Positions 49,314 to 60,659 of a DNA stretch of 64,000 nucleotides are shown here, piece by piece. Both the position numbers and the translations under genes were made by a program. Every line of letters starts with the position of its first letter. The first letter of the stretch is position 1. The stretch comes from Cupriavidus pinatubonensis. GTDB taxonomy: Bacteria; Pseudomonadota; Gammaproteobacteria; Burkholderiales; Burkholderiaceae. The notes under the pieces were generated by a model. It did no database searches and was not told the DNA's origin. It saw only the letters and a list, made by a program, of their open reading frames with translations. The stretch spans positions 2,604,001 through 2,668,000 of the forward strand of contig NZ_CP080767.1 in NCBI RefSeq assembly GCF_019602855.1. The letters run 5' to 3'.

Positions 49314-50030
49314 TCATCCTGCCTCGGCACTGCGGACTGCGCGCACGAACGCGGCGATGCGGGCGTGGTCCTTCACGCCCTTGGCGGCCTCGACTCCGCT
49401 GCTGACATCCACAGCGTAGGGCCGCACGCGTTCAATCGCGCCAGCGACGTTTTGCGCGTTCAACCCACCACTCAAAACGATGCGAGGAGCGCCGTTTGCG
49501 TTCGGGTTGCCGGGAGACGGATGGTTGGAAGCAAGCCATGCCGGAGGGATCAGGGTCCAGTCGAAGACGTGGCCGCCGCCGCCATAGCCCTCGACGAAAG
49601 CGTCGAGCAGCAAGCCAGCGGCATCGCGGTATTGACCGGCGAATTCTACCAAATCGAGCCCTGGCCGCACACGCGCCGCGCGCAGAAAAGGCAGGCGGCA
49701 GCGCTGGGCGGTCTGGGTGCAGGACTGCGGGGTCTCGTCGCCGTGGAACTGGAGCATCGTAAGGGGCACACGCTCGGCGACGTGGGCCACGTCTTCCATC
49801 TCGGCATTGACGAACAGGCCGACCACGGACACGAACGGCCCCGCGACCTCGGCAAGTTCCGCTGCGCGGGCCAGATCCACATAGCGCGGACTGGGCGGAT
49901 AGAACACCAGCCCGATCGCGTCAGCACCCGCGTCAACCGCGGCGCGGACGTCGTCCTCGCGCGTGAGGCCGCAGATCTTGATGCGGGTGCGGGCCGGTGC
50001 CGCGGCGTCGGCACGCTCAGGCTGCGTCAT
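49314..50030 (-). CDS. trpF: phosphoribosylanthranilate isomerase
   Basis: A 238-residue TIM-barrel isomerase in tryptophan synthesis. [15 protein letters not shown] carries the catalytic Cys, QFHGDETP is conserved and the catalytic Asp lies in VFDWTLIPP. It has about 17 extra N-terminal residues ([16 protein letters not shown]). It overlaps truA by 14 bp. The early trp genes (trpE, trpG, trpD, trpC) are not in the window. Confidence 0.95.
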
Positions 50031-50838
50031 GGCGGAATACTCCGTGGAACAGGCTGGCGGATGGGTCCGCCACCGGAATCTTGTAAGCCTCAGGATACTT
50101 CACGTCCGCGAGGTAGAGACCGTCCGGCATGAAGGTGGGCGCTGCGAGCTTGCGATCACGGGCGGCGAGCACTTCGGCCAGCCATTCCGGCGGATAGCGT
50201 CCGCGCCCTACCGCCACCAGGCAACCCATCAGGTTGCGCACCATGTGATGCAGGAAGGCGCTCGCGCGGAAGCGCAGGAAGACCCAGTTGCCGTCCGCCT
50301 TCAACGTCACGTCATACATGGTCTTGACCGGTGACTTGGCCTGGCACTCGGCCGCACGGAACGACGAGAAATCCTGCTCGCCAAGCAGGCAGCGCGACGC
50401 GGCCTGCATGGCATCCACGTCAAGCCTCTGGCCCGGCGGCAACATAAGGTACCCGGCCCGGCCATGCGCGAGTGGCACGCGGTGCGGGCCAGTGTAGAGC
50501 GCGTAATAGTACATTCGCTCAAACGCCAGGAAACGCGCATGGAAACTCTCGTCGACCGGCCGAGCCCATTGCAGCGCGATCGACGGCGGCAGGAAAGCAT
50601 TGATGCCGCGCACCCATGAGAACGTGGTGCGATCCAGCGTCGTGTCGAGATGGATCACCTGCCCCAGCGCATGGACGCCGGCATCAGTGCGCCCGGCAAC
50701 GGTCGTCAACAGGCGCACGCCCGCGAAGCGCTCGATGGCGTCTTCGAGGTAATCCTGCACGGTGTTGCGATGCGGCTGCGACTGCCAGCCCGAAAAGGCG
50801 GCACCGTCGTAGTGGAGGCCGATGGCGATGCGGTTCAT
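50017..50838 (-). CDS. truA: tRNA pseudouridine(38-40) synthase TruA
   Basis: A 273-residue enzyme that makes pseudouridine in tRNA anticodon arms. The catalytic Asp is D52 in [15 protein letters not shown], and the start [19 protein letters not shown] is canonical. It overlaps trpF by 14 bp, and a strong terminator lies only 27 bp upstream of its start. Confidence 0.97.
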
Positions 50839-50865
50839 GGAGCGGGAAACTGGCCTGCGATGGCC

Positions 50866-50905
50866 GACAAAAACAAATGCGCCGGAAGGGACGCTTCCGG
50901 CGCAT
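50866..50905 (-). terminator. terminator between fimV and truA
   Basis: A 12-bp perfect stem (ATGCGCCGGAAG at 50877-50888 with 50894-50905) and 5-nt loop is followed on the minus strand by TTTGTTTTTG. It is 50 bp after the fimV stop and 27 bp before the truA start. Confidence 0.92.
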
Positions 50906-50955
50906 CACTTCGGGCCGCGGCATGACTGCCGCCTGCCCGGATCGTCGATGATAAC

Positions 50956-53796
50956 TCAGACCACCTCAAGCAGCAGCGAACGCGCCTCCGCCTGCAGGTC
51001 GTCCTGCGACTGCTCCACGACTTCCTGCAGCAGCTCGCGCGCCCCTTCCTTGTCGCCGATCTCGATATAGGCGCGGGCCAGGTCCAGCTTGATCTGCATG
51101 TCGCGCCCACCGTCCATGCCGTCTGTCGACAGCGTGCTCGGCGAAACGCCCGGCGTGGTGTCGGGACCGGTGTCGCCCAGGGCGGCCAGATCGATCGGCT
51201 CTGGCAGTTTGCCGTCCCGGATCATGGTCGGCGAAGGAAGCTGCGTGGTCGCATCGGCTTCGTCCCTGGACTCGGTGGCGGCGTCGGCATTGAAGTCGAG
51301 CGAGAGGCCCGACATGTCGAATTCCATCATGCGAGAGCGGGTCGGCGTGTCCAGCCGGGGCACGTCTGCGAGGGTGTCGTCACCGTCGACCGGCAGCGTC
51401 AGGTCCAGGTCACCGTCGAACTTCGCTGCAGGCTCCAGCGGTGCGTCGGCGCGCATGGCGGTGTCGCTGAAGACCAGCGACGCCGACTCCGGCGCAATGA
51501 TCGGATCACCAGCCGCCGGTGCCGGGAAGGCATCCAGCGGCAGCGCCAGATCACCCAGCGAAGGTTCGCGCGGCGCCACGGCCGGATCGTGCGACGGGTC
51601 CTGCGTGCGCCACTGGTCCGACGCCGGCGTGGACGTTTCCGGCCCGCTGCTCGTGTCCGGCGACACCGCCAGGTACAACGCATTGCCCGCATCGAGTGCG
51701 CGCCCCATTTCCGCGGCCTTGAGCCATTCCGCCCCTTGTCCGCCGGTCTGGGCGAACATCTCTTCTGCAATCACGCGGAAACCTTCCACATCCTGACGAT
51801 TACTGTAAATCTCCAGGAGCTTGAGCCGGATCGGCTGCTGCTCCGGGTCCTTCTCGAGCGCTTCACGCAGGATCTCTTCCGCCTGCACGTCGCGCCCGTA
51901 GGCGATATAGACCTCCGCCTCGGCGAGCGGGTCGACCTCGCTGGCTTCCGGCATGTTGTTGCCGATGCGGAAATCCGCGCCGAACACGCTGTGCTGCGAC
52001 GTGTCCACGCTCTGCCCGCCGGCTGCACCGAACAGCGAATTGGCGCCGGCCATCACGGTGCTTTCCTGCGACAGGATGGAGTCACCGAAGGCTCCGCCAT
52101 CCGCCGACTTCTGCTGCTGGCGGCGACGGTAGATCGCATAGCCGCCAAGCAGCGCCACCAGCAGGCCACCACCGGGCAACAGCATAGGATTGGCCAGCAG
52201 ACCGTCGAGGAACGACGGCTCCGGCGCCGGCTCGGCCTGGACCACGACCGGTGGACGCTTGGGTGCGGGCGCTGCAGCCTGTGCAGTGCTGGCACCGGCA
52301 ACCGGTGCCGAGGCAGCCGGAGTAGCCGGACTAGTAGCCACCGCAGCGGTTGCCGCCGCTGCAGCCTGGGCCGGCGCGGCACTTGCGGCATCGACTTGTG
52401 CCGTCGGTGTGGCCGGTGCGGCCTGGGCCGGTGCATCAGTCTTAGGCGGTTCGGCCGCGACCACGGTCGGCGCCTTGGCTTCCGCCGGCGCAGCCTTTTC
52501 CGCCCTGCCCTTGTCGGCCGCAGCGGCCTGGTTAGCCTGGTTGGCCTGGTTGGCCTGGGATAGCTTGGCGATCTCGCTGTTCTTCAGCTCGAGCAGCTTC
52601 TGCATGTCGCCAACGTTCTTCTGCAACTGCGCCAGCCGCGATTCGGCTTCCTTCAGTTGCCGGTCGCGCGCGACGTTTTCCTCGGCCTGCGCGGTGGCAT
52701 TAGCCTGGCCCGCGCGCTCGCCCTTGCTCAGCTTGAGTTCGTTCTGCGGACCAGCGGCCGGAACGGCCTGGTCCTGCACGCGCGCCGTGACATTGCCCGA
52801 CTGCTGGCGCCCGCTGTCCGCCTCGACCGACTTCGCCGCGGCAGCACCAGCCAGCCGGCTGCGGTACGCGTCAAAGCCCTGCGTACGGGCCACCACCTCG
52901 CGGCGAGCGGCCTTGGGCGTGAGCGACTGCGCCTGCTGGCGCGAAGGCACCTGCAGCACCGTGCCGGATTTCAGGCGGTTGATATTGCCGCCGATGAAGG
53001 CATTAGGATTATTGCGGTACAGCGCGACCAACATCTGATCGAGTGATACGCCCTCCTGATCGAGCAGCGCATCGTTGGCGATCGACGACAGCGTGTCCCC
53101 GCGCTTGACCGTGTACGCTCCGCTTGCCGGTGACTCGCCCCCGGTGACAGCCTGAGCCGCGTGGCTACGACGACTGGCGGGCTGCCTCGCGGGCCTTGCG
53201 GCCTGCGCCTGCGCTTGGGCAGCGGGCTGCGTGCTCTGGGCGGCAGCCGGTGCGGGTTCCTGCAATGGCACCGGCGCCGGTGCGGCAGCCGGCGAGGCAT
53301 CCGGCGTGGCGGCCTGCACGACCGTCGCCGGCGAGAAAGTCTGGTTGGAAGGCTTGGCCCCGGCGGGGTCAAGCAGGAAAGTATAGGCCCGCGACACCTT
53401 GCCGCTGGACCAGCTCATGTCGATCAGAATATCGACGAACGGCTCGCTGATCGGCTGGCTGGACCGGACCTTGGCCACGTAGCTGCCATTGGGACGGCGC
53501 TCGATATCGAGTCGCAAGCTGCTCACGGCCGGCAGATACGTCAGCCCCGCGCTTGCATACGCCGCCGGCGAGGCCAGCTTGACGTTCAATCCCGCTGCCT
53601 CTTCGGCAGTCACCCCGCTGATGTCGATCTCCGCCTGCAGCGGTTGCCCCAGATTCGACTGTACCCGCAATTGCCCGAACCCCGCGGCATACGCAGCTGG
53701 CTGCGCAAGCAGCAGCCCGAGAGCCGTGACGGCCAGCGTTGACCAGCGCTGACGGACGGTTGGCGCATTCTTCCGGCGATGTTGGCTCACACTCAC
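50956..53796 (-). CDS. fimV: FimV-like peptidoglycan-binding hub protein
   Basis: A 946-residue FimV family protein, linked to type IV pilus assembly and polar organisation. Signal-like N-terminus (TLAVTALGLLLAQPAAYAAG), a FimV N-terminal domain (about 37-145), an Ala/Pro/Gln-rich linker, a LysM-type domain (about 230-290: YTVKRGDTLSSIAND), a coiled coil (about 365-415), a membrane helix (about 550-570) and an acidic cytoplasmic region with TPR-like helices, ending in the FimV C-terminal motif (IKLDLARAYIEIGDKEGARE). It carries an ANQ repeat in the coiled coil. Confidence 0.92.
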   Translation of the reverse strand: MSVSQHRRKNAPTVRQRWSTLAVTALGLLLAQPAAYAAGFGQLRVQSNLGQPLQAEIDISGVTAEEAAGLNVKLASPAAYASAGLTYLPAVSSLRLDIERRPNGSYVAKVRSSQPISEPFVDILIDMSWSSGKVSRAYTFLLDPAGAKPSNQTFSPATVVQAATPDASPAAAPAPVPLQEPAPAAAQSTQPAAQAQAQAARPARQPASRRSHAAQAVTGGESPASGAYTVKRGDTLSSIANDALLDQEGVSLDQMLVALYRNNPNAFIGGNINRLKSGTVLQVPSRQQAQSLTPKAARREVVARTQGFDAYRSRLAGAAAAKSVEADSGRQQSGNVTARVQDQAVPAAGPQNELKLSKGERAGQANATAQAEENVARDRQLKEAESRLAQLQKNVGDMQKLLELKNSEIAKLSQANQANQANQAAAADKGRAEKAAPAEAKAPTVVAAEPPKTDAPAQAAPATPTAQVDAASAAPAQAAAAATAAVATSPATPAASAPVAGASTAQAAAPAPKRPPVVVQAEPAPEPSFLDGLLANPMLLPGGGLLVALLGGYAIYRRRQQQKSADGGAFGDSILSQESTVMAGANSLFGAAGGQSVDTSQHSVFGADFRIGNNMPEASEVDPLAEAEVYIAYGRDVQAEEILREALEKDPEQQPIRLKLLEIYSNRQDVEGFRVIAEEMFAQTGGQGAEWLKAAEMGRALDAGNALYLAVSPDTSSGPETSTPASDQWRTQDPSHDPAVAPREPSLGDLALPLDAFPAPAAGDPIIAPESASLVFSDTAMRADAPLEPAAKFDGDLDLTLPVDGDDTLADVPRLDTPTRSRMMEFDMSGLSLDFNADAATESRDEADATTQLPSPTMIRDGKLPEPIDLAALGDTGPDTTPGVSPSTLSTDGMDGGRDMQIKLDLARAYIEIGDKEGARELLQEVVEQSQDDLQAEARSLLLEVV

Positions 53797-53979
53797 CTTA
53801 TGCTCCGTTATGTTTTAGTAGCGATAGAAACCCGACCCCAAAGCATTCACTCCGGCCAGCGGGCATTCTAGTGTGCCTCTCACCGGATTGCGCAAGCGTG
53901 CCGACGGAGGGCCGGCAAGCGGTCGCATGCCGGCGTATTGTGACGCATCGCCCGAAAAAATAGGCGTTCAGATGTAACA

Positions 53980-54001
53980 ACGCCGCGCACGGGCGCGGCG
54001 T
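53980..54001 (-). terminator. hairpin after asd
   Basis: ACGCCGCG (53980-53987) pairs with CGCGGCGT (53994-54001) around a 6-nt loop, 76 bp after the asd stop. The minus-strand sequence after it is TGTTAC, a poor T tract, so it may be a weak terminator only. Confidence 0.45.
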
Positions 54002-54076
54002 CACGGACAAAGCTGTTGTTTCTGTTGCCTGGCTGCAACGAAAGCCTCCAGGCATCAGCAACGTCGCTCCCCGGGA

Positions 54077-55213
54077 TCAGGACTCGATCAAAATGCGCAG
54101 CATACGGCGCAGCGGCTCGGCCGCGCCCCACAGCAGCTGGTCGCCAACCGTGAAGGCCGACAGGTACTCGCCGCCCATCTGCATCTTGCGCAGGCGCCCG
54201 ACCGGAATGGTCAGCGTGCCCGTCACGGCAGCCGGGGTCAGGTCGGTCATACTGGCTTCACGCGTGTTCGGCACCACCTTGGCCCACTGGTTGGCCGCCG
54301 CGAGCATGCCTTCGATCTCGTCCAGCGGCACGTCCTTGCGCAGCTTGATGGTCAGCGCCTGCGAATGGCAGCGCATGGCGCCAATGCGCACGCACAAGCC
54401 GTCGACGGCGATCGGCGTGGCGCCGGTCGCACCCAGGAAGCCTTCGCCGCGACCCAGGATCTTGTTGGTCTCGGCGCCGCCCTTCCATTCTTCCTTCGAC
54501 TGGCCGTTGCCCAGGTCCTTGTCGATCCAGGGAATCAGATTGCCGGCCAGCGGCACGCCGAACTGCTTGGTTTCTTCGGCGGACAGGCCATGCTGCGTCG
54601 CCAGGATCTGGCGGTCGATTTCCAGGATGGCCGATGCCGGGTTATCCAGCAGCGACTTGACCGATGCGTTCAGCGTACCGAACTGCGTCAGCAGTTCGCG
54701 CATATGCTGCGCACCGCCGCCCGAGGCGGCCTGGTAGGTCATCGAAGTCATCCACTCGACCAGGTCGGCCTGGAACAGGCCGCCGAGGCCGATCAGCATG
54801 CAGCTGACCGTGCAGTTGCCGCCGATGAAATTCTTCACGCCCTTGGACAGGGCATCCTTGATCACACCCTGGTTCACCGGATCCAGCACGATGATGGCAT
54901 CGTCCTTCATACGCAGCGACGAAGCCGCGTCGATCCAGTAGCCCTTCCAGCCCGCTGCGCGCAGCTTCGGGAAGACTTCGTTGGTATAGTCGCCGCCCTG
55001 GGCGGTCAGCACCACGTCGCACTTCTTCAGCGCGTCGATGTCGTTGGCATCCTTGAGCGTGGTTTCGTTCTTGGCCATGGCGGGCGCCTTGCCGCCGGCA
55101 TTGGACGTGCTGAAGAAGACGGGCTCGATATGGTCGAAATCACGCTCTTCCTGCATGCGCTGCATCAGGACGCTGCCGACCATTCCCCGCCAACCGACGA
55201 GACCTACAATCAT
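54077..55213 (-). CDS. asd: aspartate-semialdehyde dehydrogenase
   Basis: A 378-residue enzyme that reduces aspartyl phosphate to aspartate semialdehyde, the branch point to Lys/diaminopimelate, Met, Thr and Ile. The NADP loop is [14 protein letters not shown] (residues 8-21); the catalytic Cys is C134 in [10 protein letters not shown], the gamma-proteobacterial-type motif, and the catalytic His lies in [17 protein letters not shown] lies 6 bp before the ATG. A 43-codon Thr/Ile-rich ORF sits 90 bp upstream on the same strand. Confidence 0.97.
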
Positions 55214-55237
55214 GATTTACCTCGGATGTGATTTTTA

Positions 55238-55286
55238 CTTCCCCGCCATTTTCCTCGCCCGGCGTGGCTGCGCGGGGAAGACGGGC
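55238..55286 (-). promoter_or_regulatory. two competing helices upstream of asd
   Basis: Helix B is a 9-bp stem, CTTCCCCGC with GCGGGGAAG (55272-55280 and 55238-55246). Helix A is GCCCG/CGGGC (55282-55286 and 55257-55261). Each crosses the other, so they exclude each other or form a pseudoknot. Both lie between the Thr/Ile-rich ORF and the asd ribosome binding site, the place for an attenuation switch. No T run follows helix B. Confidence 0.5.
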
Positions 55287-55303
55287 AGGCACGACGAACG
55301 GAT

Positions 55304-55435
55304 CTAGGCGATCGCGGTTTTAATAATCGTTTTAATCGTCGTTGCGGTCTGGCCGAGCGAAATCGTGCCGACCGGGCCGCGGGTAACGGTCAGGGCAGCA
55401 ACAGCAGTCAGGGTGGACTGGGAAAATCGGGCCAT
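55304..55435 (-). CDS. 43-residue Thr/Ile-rich small ORF, candidate leader peptide of asd
   Basis: The ORF starts at ATG 55435 (MARFSQSTLTAVAALTVT) and ends GQTATTIKTIIKTAIA then TAG. Ten of 43 residues are Thr and five are Ile, and the last 14 codons before the stop hold five Thr and four Ile. Thr and Ile are end products of the pathway asd feeds. It lies between the leuB terminator and asd, 90 bp upstream of asd, and shows no protein-domain likeness. I see no clear Shine-Dalgarno sequence; a TAGACT box lies only a few bases upstream, so a leaderless start is possible. Expression is unproven. Confidence 0.5.
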   Translation of the reverse strand: MARFSQSTLTAVAALTVTRGPVGTISLGQTATTIKTIIKTAIA

Positions 55436-55488
55436 TCGCAGAGTCTACACGATTTTGCGGCGGTGCCGCAGCGTGGAAAATCGGGGAC

Positions 55489-55522
55489 AAATAAAAGAAA
55501 AGGCGCTGCAGCGCAGCGCCTT
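55489..55522 (-). terminator. leuB terminator
   Basis: AAGGCGCTG and CAGCGCCTT (55514-55522 and 55500-55508) pair around a 5-nt loop, followed on the minus strand by TTCTTTTATTT. It starts 14 bp after the leuB stop, so asd needs its own promoter. Confidence 0.92.
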
Positions 55523-55536
55523 TTCCGGATTGTGAC

Positions 55537-56604
55537 TTACAGAGCGGCCAGTACGGCCTCGCCCATTTCGCGCGTGCCGACCTGCTTGCAGCCCGGCGTC
55601 AGGATGTCGCCGGTGCGATAGCCCTGTGCCAGCACCTTCTTCACGGCGTTCTCGATGCGGTCGGCCTGTTCGGCCTTGTTCAGCGAGTAGCGCAGCATCA
55701 TCGCCGCCGACAGGATGGTCGCCAGCGGATTGGCGACGCCCTTGCCCGCGATGTCCGGGGCCGAACCGTGCGACGGCTCGTACAGGCCCTTGTTGTTCGC
55801 ATCAAGCGAGGCCGACGGCAGCATGCCGATCGAGCCGGTCAGCATCGCGGCCTCGTCCGACAGGATGTCGCCGAACATATTGCCGGTGACGATTACATCG
55901 AAGCTCTTGGGCGCCTTGACCAGCTGCATCGCGGCGTTGTCGACGTACATGTGCGACAGCTCGACGTCCGGATACTCCTTGCTGACATCGATCACGATGT
56001 CCTTCCAGAACTGAAAGGTCTCGAGCACGTTGGCCTTGTCGACGCTGCACAGCTTCTTGCCGCGCTTGGCCGCGGCCTGGAACGCCACATGCGCGATGCG
56101 GCGGATTTCCGGCTCGCTGTAGCGCATGGTGTCGAAACCTTCGCGGGCGCCCTTGAACAGGCCGTCCGGCGCCTCACGCACGCCGCGCGGCTGGCCGAAG
56201 TAAATGTCGCCATTCAGTTCGCGCACGATCAGGATGTCCAGGCCCGCGACCAGTTCCGGCTTCAGGCTCGATGCGCCCGTCAATTCCGGATAGCAGATCG
56301 CCGGGCGGAAGTTGGCGAACAGCTGCAGGTGCTTGCGCAGGCCCAGGATGGCCTGCTCGGGGCGCAGCGCGCGCTCCAGGCTGTCGTACTTCCAGTCGCC
56401 CACGGCGCCGAACAGGATGGCATCGGCTTCCTTGGCCAGCTTCAGCGTGTTCTCCGGCAGTGGGTGGCCTTCGGCCTCGTAGCCGGCGCCGCCCACCGGG
56501 GCGGTTTCCATCTCGAACTTCTCGTCGAGCGCGTTCAGGACCTTGACGGCCTCGGCAACGATTTCCGGACCGATGCCGTCACCTGGCAGGACTGCGATCT
56601 TCAT
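55537..56604 (-). CDS. leuB: 3-isopropylmalate dehydrogenase
   Basis: A 355-residue enzyme of leucine synthesis that oxidises and decarboxylates 3-isopropylmalate with NAD. The start [20 protein letters not shown] is the family hallmark; catalytic Lys and Asp lie in [10 protein letters not shown] and [14 protein letters not shown], and [14 protein letters not shown] is conserved. The ATG at 56604 is preferred over a longer frame. It follows leuD after 35 bp. Confidence 0.98.
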
Positions 56605-56639
56605 GCTGTGTTTTCCTTGTTTGATTTCCGCTGTGGCGT

Positions 56640-57290
56640 TCAGCCGACCACGCGGTTGTTCAGCCACGGCATCTTCGCCACGCGCTCGGCTTCATAGCTC
56701 TTGATCTTGTCGGCATGGCGCAGGGTCAGGCCGATATCGTCAAAGCCATTCAGCATGCAGTACTTGCGGAACGGGGCGATGTCGAACTCATAGCCCTGGC
56801 CCGACGGCGTGAGCACGACCTGCTTGTCCAGGTCGATGGTCAGCTTGTAGCCGTTGAACGCGTTGGTCTCGTTGAACAGGTGGTCGATTTGCTGCTCGCT
56901 CAGCACCACCGGCAGCAGGCCGTTCTTGTAGCAGTTGTTGAAGAAGATGTCGGCGAAGCTCGGCGCGATCACGGCGCGGAAGCCGTATTGCGAGAGCGCC
57001 CACGGCGCATGTTCGCGCGAGCTGCCGCAGCCGAAGTTGCGGCGCGCGAGCAGGATCGACGCACCCTGGTAGCGCGGCTGGTTCAGCACGAAGTCCGGGT
57101 TCAGCGGACGCTTGCTGTTGTCCATGCCGGGCTCCCCGACGTCCTTGTAGCGCCATTCGTCGAACAGGTTCGGGCCGAAGCCGGTGCGCTTGATCGACTT
57201 CAGGAACTGCTTCGGGATGATGGCGTCGGTATCGACGTTCTCGCGGTCCAGCGGCGCCACGAGGCCGCTGTGTACAGTGAACTTGTCCAT
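56640..57290 (-). CDS. leuD: 3-isopropylmalate dehydratase small subunit
   Basis: A 216-residue subunit that forms the isopropylmalate isomerase with Leu[15 protein letters not shown] and [14 protein letters not shown] are the signature segments. The start [20 protein letters not shown] is typical. It follows the entericidin gene by 10 bp. Confidence 0.98.
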
Positions 57291-57300
57291 GTCTCTTTCC

Positions 57301-57429
57301 TTACTTCTTGGCCGCGCGCTCGAGCGAGCTGCCGGCGGCCTGCGTGTCCTTGCCCAGACCGGCCATGGTGTTGCAGCCGGCCAGTTGCAGCATGCCGAAG
57401 CATGCCAGCAGAGCGATCAGGGTTCTCAT
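57301..57429 (-). CDS. entericidin-like small lipoprotein between leuC and leuD
   Basis: A 42-residue protein, [19 protein letters not shown] then [20 protein letters not shown]. The lipobox LAGC places the lipidated Cys at residue 19, and the mature NTxxGxGKDxxxxGxxLE pattern is the entericidin EcnA/EcnB signature. These small lipoproteins are linked to stress-induced lysis in enterobacteria. Its ATG is 14 bp after the leuC stop and it ends 10 bp before leuD, so it is inside the leucine operon. Confidence 0.88.
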
Positions 57430-57443
57430 CTGCAGCACTCCGC

Positions 57444-58853
57444 TCAGCCGAGCTTGCGGATGTCGACGAAGTGGCCTTCGATGGCGGCCGCGGCGGCCAT
57501 CGCCGGGCTCACCAGATGGGTGCGGCCACCCGCGCCCTGACGGCCTTCGAAGTTGCGGTTCGACGTGGACGCGCAGCGCTCGCCCGGCTCCAGGCGATCG
57601 GCATTCATCGCCAGGCACATCGAGCAACCCGGCTCGCGCCATTCGAAGCCTGCGGCCTTGAAGACCTTGTCGAGCCCTTCGCGCTCGGCCTGTTCCTTGA
57701 CCAGGCCCGAACCCGGCACGACCATCGCCAGCTTCACGTTCGAAGCCACCTTGCGGCCCAGCTTCTGCACCACCCACGCGGCGGCGCGCATGTCTTCGAT
57801 GCGGCTGTTGGTGCAGGAACCGATGAACACCTTGTCCACGTTGATGCTTTCCATCGGCACGTTGGGCTGCAGGTTCATGTACTCGAGCGCGCGCTCCATG
57901 GCGTTGCGCCTGGTCGGGTCCTTTTCCTTTTCGGGATCCGGCACGCGGTCTTCGATGCTGACGACCATTTCGGGCGACGTGCCCCAGGTCACCTGCGGGC
58001 GGATGTCCTCGGCACGCAGCTCGATCACCTGGTCGAAACTGGCGCCGGCGTCCGAATGCAGCGTGCTCCAGTAGGCCACGGCCTGGTCCCACTCTACGCC
58101 CTGCGGCGCATACGGACGACCCTTCACGTATTCCAGCGTGACATTGTCCACGGCCACCAGCCCCGCACGTGCGCCGGCTTCGATGGCCATGTTGCAGACC
58201 GTCATGCGGCCTTCCATGGTCAGGTCGCGGATGGCCGACCCGGCGAATTCGATCGTGTAGCCGGTACCGCCGGCCGTGCCGATCTTGCCGATGATGGCCA
58301 GCACGATGTCCTTGGCGGTGCAGCCGCGCGGCAGCTTGCCTTCCACCTTGACCAGCATGTTCTTGGCCTTCTTGCCCAGCAGCGTCTGCGTGGCCAGCAC
58401 GTGCTCGACTTCCGACGTACCGATGCCATGCGCGAGCGCACCGAATGCACCGTGCGTGGAGGTATGCGAGTCGCCGCACACCACCGTCATGCCCGGCAGC
58501 GTGGCGCCCTGCTCCGGCCCGATCACGTGCACGATGCCCTGGCGATGATCGTTCATCTTGAACTGGGTGATGCCGAAACTGTCGCAGTTTGCGTCCAGCG
58601 TATCGACCTGCAGCTTCGACACCGGGTCGGCGATACCTTCGCTGCGGTCAGTGGTCGGCACGTTGTGGTCCGACACCGCCAGGTTCGCGCTGATGCGCCA
58701 CACCGGACGCTCTGCCATCTTCAGGCCTTCGAACGCCTGCGGGCTGGTCACTTCATGCAGCAGATGACGGTCGATGTAGAGCAGCGTAGTGCCGTCTTCC
58801 TCGACGTGGACGGTGTGGTCATCCCAGAGTTTGTCGTAGAGCGTCTTGGCCAT
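57444..58853 (-). CDS. leuC: 3-isopropylmalate dehydratase large subunit
   Basis: A 469-residue aconitase-family subunit that isomerises 2- to 3-isopropylmalate using a 4Fe-4S cluster. The cluster Cys are in IGSCTNSRI and [11 protein letters not shown], and [14 protein letters not shown] is conserved. The ATG at 58853 gives [20 protein letters not shown]. It is the first gene of leuC-ecn-leuD-leuB. Confidence 0.98.
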
Positions 58854-59024
58854 GATGCATGGGGCGGCCAGCGTGCCATTCCGGCGGAAATGGCGCACGG
58901 TACCGCGCAAGTAGTTTGCAGGGATCTTTGTGTGGTCCGGCCGCCTCGTTACCGGGGCAGGACACGGCGACGGCAACCGCGATGATGACGCTGGAGGCCG
59001 TCGGAAGCGAGCGCTTTTTGCAAT

Positions 59025-59040
59025 GCTTGACTTCTCAAGC
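59025..59040. promoter_or_regulatory. inverted repeat upstream of leuC
   Basis: GCTTGACTTCTCAAGC has 6-bp perfect arms around a 4-nt centre and contains a T-N10-A spaced core. It could be an operator, for example for a LysR-type regulator, or an mRNA hairpin near the 5' end of leuC. No regulator gene is nearby. Confidence 0.4.
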
Positions 59041-59136
59041 GATTATGCCATGGGTGAGGCGCCGGCCTGCCCCGGCACAGCCTTGCGCTGCGCCGCGATT
59101 GGCGAAAGGGGGCTTTCGTGGATGGCGAAAGCCATA

Positions 59137-59165
59137 CCGTCGCCCCCGCGACGCGGGAACGACGG
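59137..59165. repeat. REP-like palindrome after livF
   Basis: CCGTCG (59137-59142) pairs with CGACGG (59160-59165), and CCCGCG (59145-59150) pairs with CGCGGG (59152-59157). The pattern TCGTTCCCGCG...CGCGGG resembles the dispersed intergenic palindromes common in proteobacterial genomes. Only one copy is in the window. It may protect the livF mRNA 3' end. Confidence 0.45.
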
Positions 59166-59172
59166 CATGGGA

Positions 59173-59873
<701 letters not shown>

Positions 59874-59874
<1 letters not shown>

Positions 59875-60659
59875 CAGTCCTCTCCCAGGTAGGCCTTGAT
59901 CACGCGCGGGTCGTTGCGCACTTCCTCGGGCTTGCCGATCACGATCGGCTTGCCGTGCTCCATCACCAGGATGCGGTCGGACACGCCCATCACCAGGCTC
60001 ATGTCGTGCTCGATCAGCAGCACGGCGATGCCGTACTCCTTGCGCAACTGGTCGATGAGCTGCGACAGCTCGATCTTCTCTTGCGGGTTCAGGCCCGCAG
60101 CCGGTTCGTCCAGCATCAGCAGGCGCGGCTTCGTGATCATGCAGCGCGCGATCTCGAGCCGGCGCTGGTGACCGTACGACAGCGTGCCTGCCTCTCGGTT
60201 GGCAACCTTGGTCAGGCCCATGCGCTCCAGCCATTCGGCGGCACGCTCCAGCGCTTCACGTTCGGCGCGGCGATAGGCCGGCGTCGCGAACAGTCCGCGC
60301 AGGATGCCCGCCTGCACCTGCAGGTGCTGCGCGACCAGCAGGTTCTCCACCACGGTCAGGTTCTTGAACAGGCGGATGTTCTGGAACGTGCGCACCAGGC
60401 CCTTGCGCGCCACCATATGGCTCGGGAGGCCGGCGATGGCATGGCCGTCCAGCGTGACCTCGCCCGCCGTCGGCTTGTAGAAACCGCCGACGCAGTTGAA
60501 CACCGTGGTCTTGCCGGCGCCATTCGGGCCGATGATCGCGAAGACCTCGTCGCGCCTGACATCGAACTCGATGCCATCCACCGCCAGCAGGCCGCCGAAG
60601 CGCATCTGCAGGCCGGAAACTTTCAGCAATTCCGCATTTGCATTCATCGCCGTACTCAT
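59874..60659 (-). CDS. livG: branched-chain amino acid ABC transporter ATP-binding protein LivG
   Basis: A 261-residue ATPase: Walker [13 protein letters not shown], signature [13 protein letters not shown], Walker [14 protein letters not shown] and switch His in [11 protein letters not shown]. The start [20 protein letters not shown] overlaps the livM stop (ATGA), and its stop overlaps livF. Another Met is four codons in. Confidence 0.94.

Follow-up and report, generated by a model that had tools for sequence, protein, structure and literature searches.

The asd gene of Cupriavidus, encoding aspartate-semialdehyde dehydrogenase, like that of many of its relatives, is preceded by what comparison of sequences marks as a real and conserved leader, and no earlier description either of it or of other control of asd in these beta-proteobacteria was found in the open-licence literature. 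That comparison demonstrates a conserved reading frame, its amino-acid composition, the fixed position of a -10-like hexamer before it, its fusion in some bacteria to the end of LeuB and, directly 3′ of its stop codon, a hairpin, P2. There is a high probability that asd is controlled by an attenuator that the translating ribosome reads. The most surprising features are the form fused to LeuB and the probable start of the free-standing mRNA at the initiation codon itself.

The reading frame and its occurrence

The window, by which is meant the whole 64,000-nucleotide stretch that was analysed, comes from a genome of 7.5 Mb in 4 contigs, and among named asd loci the closest match to its asd, with 99% identity, is from Cupriavidus. 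The order on the minus strand is leuB (55537..56604), a strong intrinsic terminator 3′ of it revealed by a terminator scan (55496..55526), the leader ORF (55304..55435; 43 codons with an ATG start; translation MARFSQSTLTAVAALTVTRGPVGTISLGQTATTIKTIIKTAIA) and then, 90 nt after the leader stop codon, the presumed regulated gene, asd (54077..55213), with its Shine-Dalgarno, GAGG, at 55220..55223. The initial annotation had picked out this ORF on the asd strand between the leuB terminator and asd, had counted 10 Thr and 5 Ile codons in it, and had read its last 14 codons (55307..55348), the presumed sensing stretch, as T-A-T-T-I-K-T-I-I-K-T-A-I-A; all of this the sequence bears out. What it overlooked is the enrichment of Lys, the hexamer and the structures 3′ of the stop codon.

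Lys joins Thr and Ile as an enriched leader residue. In the 33 distinct Cupriavidus tails the fractions of Thr, Ile and Lys are 0.40, 0.25 and 0.15, while they are 0.12, 0.07 and 0.00 in the ORF outside the tail and 0.05, 0.04 and 0.05 in five genes of the window; the three residues together come to 0.80, 0.19 and about 0.14 respectively. The codons are also distinctive, with AAA used for 67 of the 68 Lys in these tails, as against 3% of 109 in the window genes, and ATT for 75 of the 116 Ile, as against 10% of 100. Elsewhere in the window’s family AAA is strongly preferred (135 to 9); in Comamonadaceae-type loci there is little or no such preference (35 to 19 and 50 to 48). It counts against taking these choices as a mark of attenuation that AAA and ATT could instead be used because they leave the stretch free of structure. 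Asd stands ahead of the point where the pathway divides towards Lys, Met, Thr and Ile, so that Lys, Thr and Ile all come from reactions after it, and several end products may thus be sensed by the leader. In any case, a short ORF enriched in codons for products of the pathway, as looked for in an attenuator, lies directly upstream of asd.

How widely is such a frame found? A locus was counted where the asd strand had a frame that was open for 15 codons or more, measured between stops, and ended 45–200 nt before asd, and where its last 12 residues included at least three that were Thr or Ile and at least six that were Thr, Ile or Lys. By this rule the leader is present in 59 of the 59 loci of the genus, in 82 of 100 from other genera of the window’s family (f1 below), with 18 lacking it, and, in the family termed Comamonadaceae-type from its named relatives (f49), in 91 of the 108 located loci, 48 of them fused to LeuB and 43 separate, with 17 having none. 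For other families of the order the count was 0 of 22 loci, with one further locus not located; these were the ones among the 30 best matches of a single search, and they cover few families. On the opposite strand, which served as control, 1 of 368 loci from all groups meets the rule, and set against this the 59 of 59 in the genus exceeds chance.

The figure of 82 in 100 is no family-wide rate, because the sample favoured genera already known to have the leader: the 100 were drawn from 254 family genomes outside the genus with an asd match, 30 being chosen to span 21 genera, of which 8 have the leader, and the other 70 being mostly from genera already known to be positive. Included in the 82 are two loci, L292 and L293, with an odd region after the stop codon, which were dropped from the later structure and promoter counts. 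The Comamonadaceae-type sample was of 111 loci, from 116 genomes with an asd match, and in 3 of the 111 the asd start was not located; that family has two divergent types of asd, roughly 85% and 70% identical to the query, and the leader occurs ahead of either type. Among all 80 named loci there are 18 with a separate leader, 15 with a fused one, 46 with none and 1 with too little upstream sequence; the 38 from L010 to L047, mostly Oxalobacteraceae with two Pandoraea, have none.

Within the genus a DNA search with the gap between leuB and asd matched 59 of 60 genomes, the sole miss being a genome that is 54% complete. The 51 distinct Cupriavidus ORFs, taken from the 59 loci and nine named ones (two sets that may overlap), are 38–50 in length, varying by whole codons. 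Their N-terminal part drifts and their tail stays near ATTIKT(I/T)xK, with a one-residue difference in a few loci; in L134 and L135 the tail pattern is partly missing and the Thr/Ile run is retained. The initial annotation had proposed a Thr/Ile attenuation leader for asd, to be judged by a Thr/Ile run kept amid drifting sequence in Cupriavidus, Ralstonia and Burkholderia, and the comparison across relatives supports that reading. The run is kept in Cupriavidus, in three named Paraburkholderia and in further genera, and an ORF broken or lacking Thr/Ile codons, which was named as telling against the proposal, did not turn up in any of the genus loci. As no record among the 80 named loci carries the name Ralstonia or Burkholderia, that part of the comparison rests on other members of the family and on Paraburkholderia.

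Other searches delimit the element. A model of it, taken to E values up to 1, gave no second copy in its own genome, the sole match being at asd, and there is no Thr/Ile-rich short ORF in the 420 nt upstream of hom. The R2 search of 250 genomes of the order yielded six strong matches, each from f49 and with E no worse than 9e-19; the remaining matches had E 9e-5 or worse, and none of the six of these inspected is before asd. One weak match, L395, has a loosely Thr/Ile-rich frame inside a coding region, not before asd. A protein search with the leader peptide returned five proteins including the query’s own, two of them labelled hypothetical. Two small genomes of genus g7 may be mentioned: the leader is retained in the 1.2-Mb reduced genome G065 (L193), and in the 1.1-Mb genome G125 (L292) the stretch between leader and asd is interrupted by inserted sequence that contains a long, almost perfect inverted repeat.

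A probable leaderless start and the form fused to LeuB

In the window the hexamer TAGACT (55442..55447, minus strand) stands 6 nt before the leader ATG, a position that is conserved, and transcription is predicted to start at or near 55435. When such a hexamer is defined as TAnnnT with four or more of its six positions matching TATAAT, 5–9 nt upstream of an in-frame ATG, it is present in 177 of the 183 free-standing leaders (68/68, 81/83 and 28/32 by group), and in eight other 5-nt intervals, as control, the corresponding numbers are 0–2, 0–14 and 0–3. The commonest hexamers vary by group, being TAGACT in one, TATATT and TAGACT in another and TACAAT in the third. Because of that spacing the mRNA probably begins at the ATG, i.e., initiation would be leaderless, and this would account for the missing Shine-Dalgarno, the initial annotation having seen no clear one. 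Matches of at least 4 nt to AAGGAGGT precede just 2 of the 183 leaders, whose starts were for this count chosen by the hexamer, as against 181 of 183 asd genes. A published account of C. metallidurans puts leaderless starts at 4.67% of primary transcription starts (PMC7563307).

The hexamer precedes an in-frame ATG in only 7 of 51 LeuB-fused loci. In the fused form the leader makes up the C-terminal end of LeuB. Examples are AITKKTITG and AITTTTKTIKS, and tails of this kind occur in named Variovorax, Xenophilus, Roseateles, Methylibium, Paucibacter and Pelomonas and in many other genera; in a Variovorax LeuB of which 358 residues were submitted, the Pfam domain stops at residue 347. The LeuB of the window has no Thr/Ile tail, its last residues being AVLAAL. 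When the fused state was mapped on a tree of 58 Asd proteins, which does not stand for the phylogeny of the species, the best tree called for 7 changes of state and the well-supported branches for at least 5. Within a single genus both forms occur, in genomes G366 (fused, L202) and G672 (separate, L315). On balance we consider it probable that the leader has more than once been joined to, or parted from, the 3′ end of leuB, with about the last 10 residues of LeuB acting as a gauge of Thr, Ile and Lys, with the free-standing form leaderless, and mostly with no classical terminator. The fused form leads to a prediction, namely that the tail would be dispensable for catalysis yet needed for control of asd. 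In fused loci L049, L052, L058 and others an A-rich and then a U-rich stretch lies between the hairpin and asd, adjoining the Shine-Dalgarno.

Folds after the stop codon and the proposed control of asd

The stretch after the leader stop codon is strongly conserved. P2 (55256..55300, minus strand) begins 3 nt after the stop and is the minimum-energy fold of the first 60 nt. It was assessed in an alignment for the window’s family of 38 rows, i.e., the window plus 37 kept of 148 at less than 93% similarity, and in a Comamonadaceae-type one of 71 rows, for which 74 were kept of 83 and three long sequences then dropped. In the former, 91.6% of P2 cells are paired (19–49% for slid controls), and six pairs with 15 cells are changed on both sides compared with 2.6 and 3.7 in shuffles, none of 500 being as high, though slid controls have up to 9 such cells. 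In the latter, 92.3% are paired (slid controls up to 49%) and 9 cells are changed on both sides compared with 2.4 in shuffles and up to 6 in slid controls, but one slid control, and 20 of 500 shuffles, equal the count of 4 pairs so changed. In neither alignment are there more pair types than in shuffles. P2 is supported by this covariation, best in the window’s family, and for P2 as for P3, the fold considered next, covariation is support and not proof, because related sequences can exceed shuffles without structure. In the first 52 nt after the stop, Comamonadaceae-type sequences are stabler than shuffles (mean z -3.7 and -3.4), and stability in the window’s family is moderate (-2.0 and -1.3).

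The competing downstream fold, P3 (arms CTTCCCCGC and GCGGGGAAG, 55238..55280, minus strand), overlaps P2 in sequence, has no U-tract after it and, as modelled, is less certain and weakly supported. In the window’s family (38 rows) 96.1% of its cells are paired, with slid controls reaching 67%, but the three changes on both sides, of one cell each, are equalled by slid controls; a short version in the Comamonadaceae-type alignment has 93.0% paired and 6 such cells compared with 1.4 in shuffles, one slid control also having 6. The predicted minimum-energy fold of the window over 70 or 90 nt is a third arrangement, neither P2 nor P3, in which the same 3′ G-rich arm pairs further upstream, and it contains P3 only with 30 nt of asd added. 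In the window’s twin locus L081, P3 is computed to be the more stable, the ensemble locked into it having -41.6 kcal/mol as against -34.6 for P2. L193 has at the place of P3 a hairpin in which both arms are replaced by A/T-richer sequence that still pairs, and its relatives L291–L293 have no clear P3.

A pause hairpin, P1, was also considered and set aside. Its possible 5′ arm GCAACGACGA (55336..55345, minus strand), in Ala-Thr-Thr-Ile codons, is complementary to 55289–55297, where the possible 3′ arm TCGTCGTGC overlaps the 5′ arm of P2 on the same strand, and pairing is possible in Cupriavidus. However, P1 shows no covariation in the alignment for the window’s family, and synonymous codon choice gives no clear signal, the energy being below that of random draws in 31/37, 29/69, 20/32 and 24/45. 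At the stop codon of Comamonadaceae-type loci the last codon and the following base appear linked, AGC going with T in 10 of 10 and GGC with C in 19, T in 14 and A in 1, which is suggestive only, as 15 of 59 distinct ends were not scorable and kinship was not corrected for. A scan of window positions 50000–60000 with Rfam models gave one match, weak, unrelated and below the gathering score: 50842–50905 resembles Pseudomonas sRNA P17 with 20 bits, where the gathering score is 45, probably by chance.

How might such a leader set asd? By analogy with known attenuators we infer that the leader is translated, that ribosomes stall on it, and that a switch follows in a given direction. A promoter just 3′ of the leuB terminator would start the transcript at or next to the leader ATG, and translation of the ORF would begin without a Shine-Dalgarno. 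Poor charging of Thr-, Ile- or Lys-tRNA would slow the ribosome within the last 14 codons, or, in many Comamonadaceae-type bacteria, within a sensing tail that would make up roughly the final 10 codons of leuB. With its 5′ arm then free, P2 could fold, block P3 or a close alternative, and allow asd expression. With good charging the ribosome would reach the stop codon and cover that arm, the downstream fold would form and asd expression would fall.

By what means would expression fall? In the enterobacterial thr operon the downstream hairpin serves as an intrinsic terminator, but that textbook kind of transcription attenuation is improbable here. A hairpin with a T-rich run after it is found in 11 of 32 distinct free-standing Comamonadaceae-type sequences and more rarely in other groups (Cupriavidus 2/26, other f1 3/56, fused 6/47), each of these being higher than the mean for shuffled sequences (2.2 for the first, then 0.5, 0.7 and 2.8). 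However, 22 of 161 distinct sequences is all that this amounts to, and with the U-tract absent from 139 an intrinsic terminator is unsupported as the general output; what comes after P3 in the window is TAAAAATC, and the only terminator that the scan gives is the one after leuB. The scarcity of U-tracts favours Rho-dependent attenuation, to which we lean for this step while granting it somewhat less than an even chance. Rho would load onto a C-rich stretch beyond the stop codon after the ribosome had left the leader, unless P2 hid that stretch, and in the first 40-odd nt after the stop C does exceed G on the RNA strand; yet C-rich 5′ arms are trivially expected from hairpins, and P3 would also hide part of that stretch. 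Terminators that are mostly missing are also what would be expected were the folds to set ribosome access to asd, as happens with SecM or Erm leaders, and in the window P3 ends 24 nt before the asd ATG. Such translational control is nevertheless doubtful, as in the 78 sequences that passed a motif filter the predicted access to the asd start does not differ consistently between the P2 and P3 states, being higher with P2 in 19 of 27 from Cupriavidus but only 14 of 51 others, and sequestration of that start gives no consistent signal.

Could the conservation have a cause other than attenuation? Among close pairs in Cupriavidus silent changes number 574 where 371 are expected, a count that is not independent because pairs overlap, and this is what a small protein with its own function would give. 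That is very unlikely nonetheless, for in other genera of the family the excess is slight (101 where 92 are expected), the N-terminal part varies in sequence and length, and the feature that the groups share is the tail, which occurs also as the tail of LeuB. Harder still to credit is a structured RNA or riboswitch with an incidental ORF. Though the conservation 3′ of the stop and the covariation of P2 would suit it, frame and amino-acid composition are kept across groups, the fused tail is read as part of LeuB, and ten loci matched no Rfam family at the gathering score.

Likeness to known leaders and meaning

Attenuation in proteobacteria was reportedly the subject of a comparative survey in 2004. 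The thrL of enterobacteria is a short ORF with a run of Thr and Ile codons ahead of a gene of the aspartate family and with RNA hairpins after it. The asd leader resembles it, and ribosome-mediated attenuators generally, in having a short ORF with a Thr/Ile run before an aspartate-family gene and then hairpins, but differs in the gene, in the addition of Lys, in the probable leaderless start, in mostly being without a U-tract terminator and in having no Rfam match. In the SecM–secA pair a gene is controlled by the C-terminal end of the protein encoded before it. The fused leader is like it in that the end of an upstream coding sequence would be the sensor; however, SecM is a dedicated arrest protein, whereas LeuB is an enzyme and the signal would be tRNA charging. 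The asd RNA motif, RF01732, is likewise named for asd, but it is listed for Lactobacillales, which belong to another phylum (PMC2864571), and its covariance model matched none of the ten loci at the gathering score. The uORF attenuator of Corynebacterium ilvB (PMC11109978) is like the asd leader in being rich in codons for the products of its pathway, and has competing stems, but it belongs to another pathway and another phylum and has an intrinsic-terminator stem.

If the interpretation is true, a gauge of several end products, carried on a leaderless mRNA and capable of being attached to the end of a metabolic enzyme, would add to present knowledge of attenuation.
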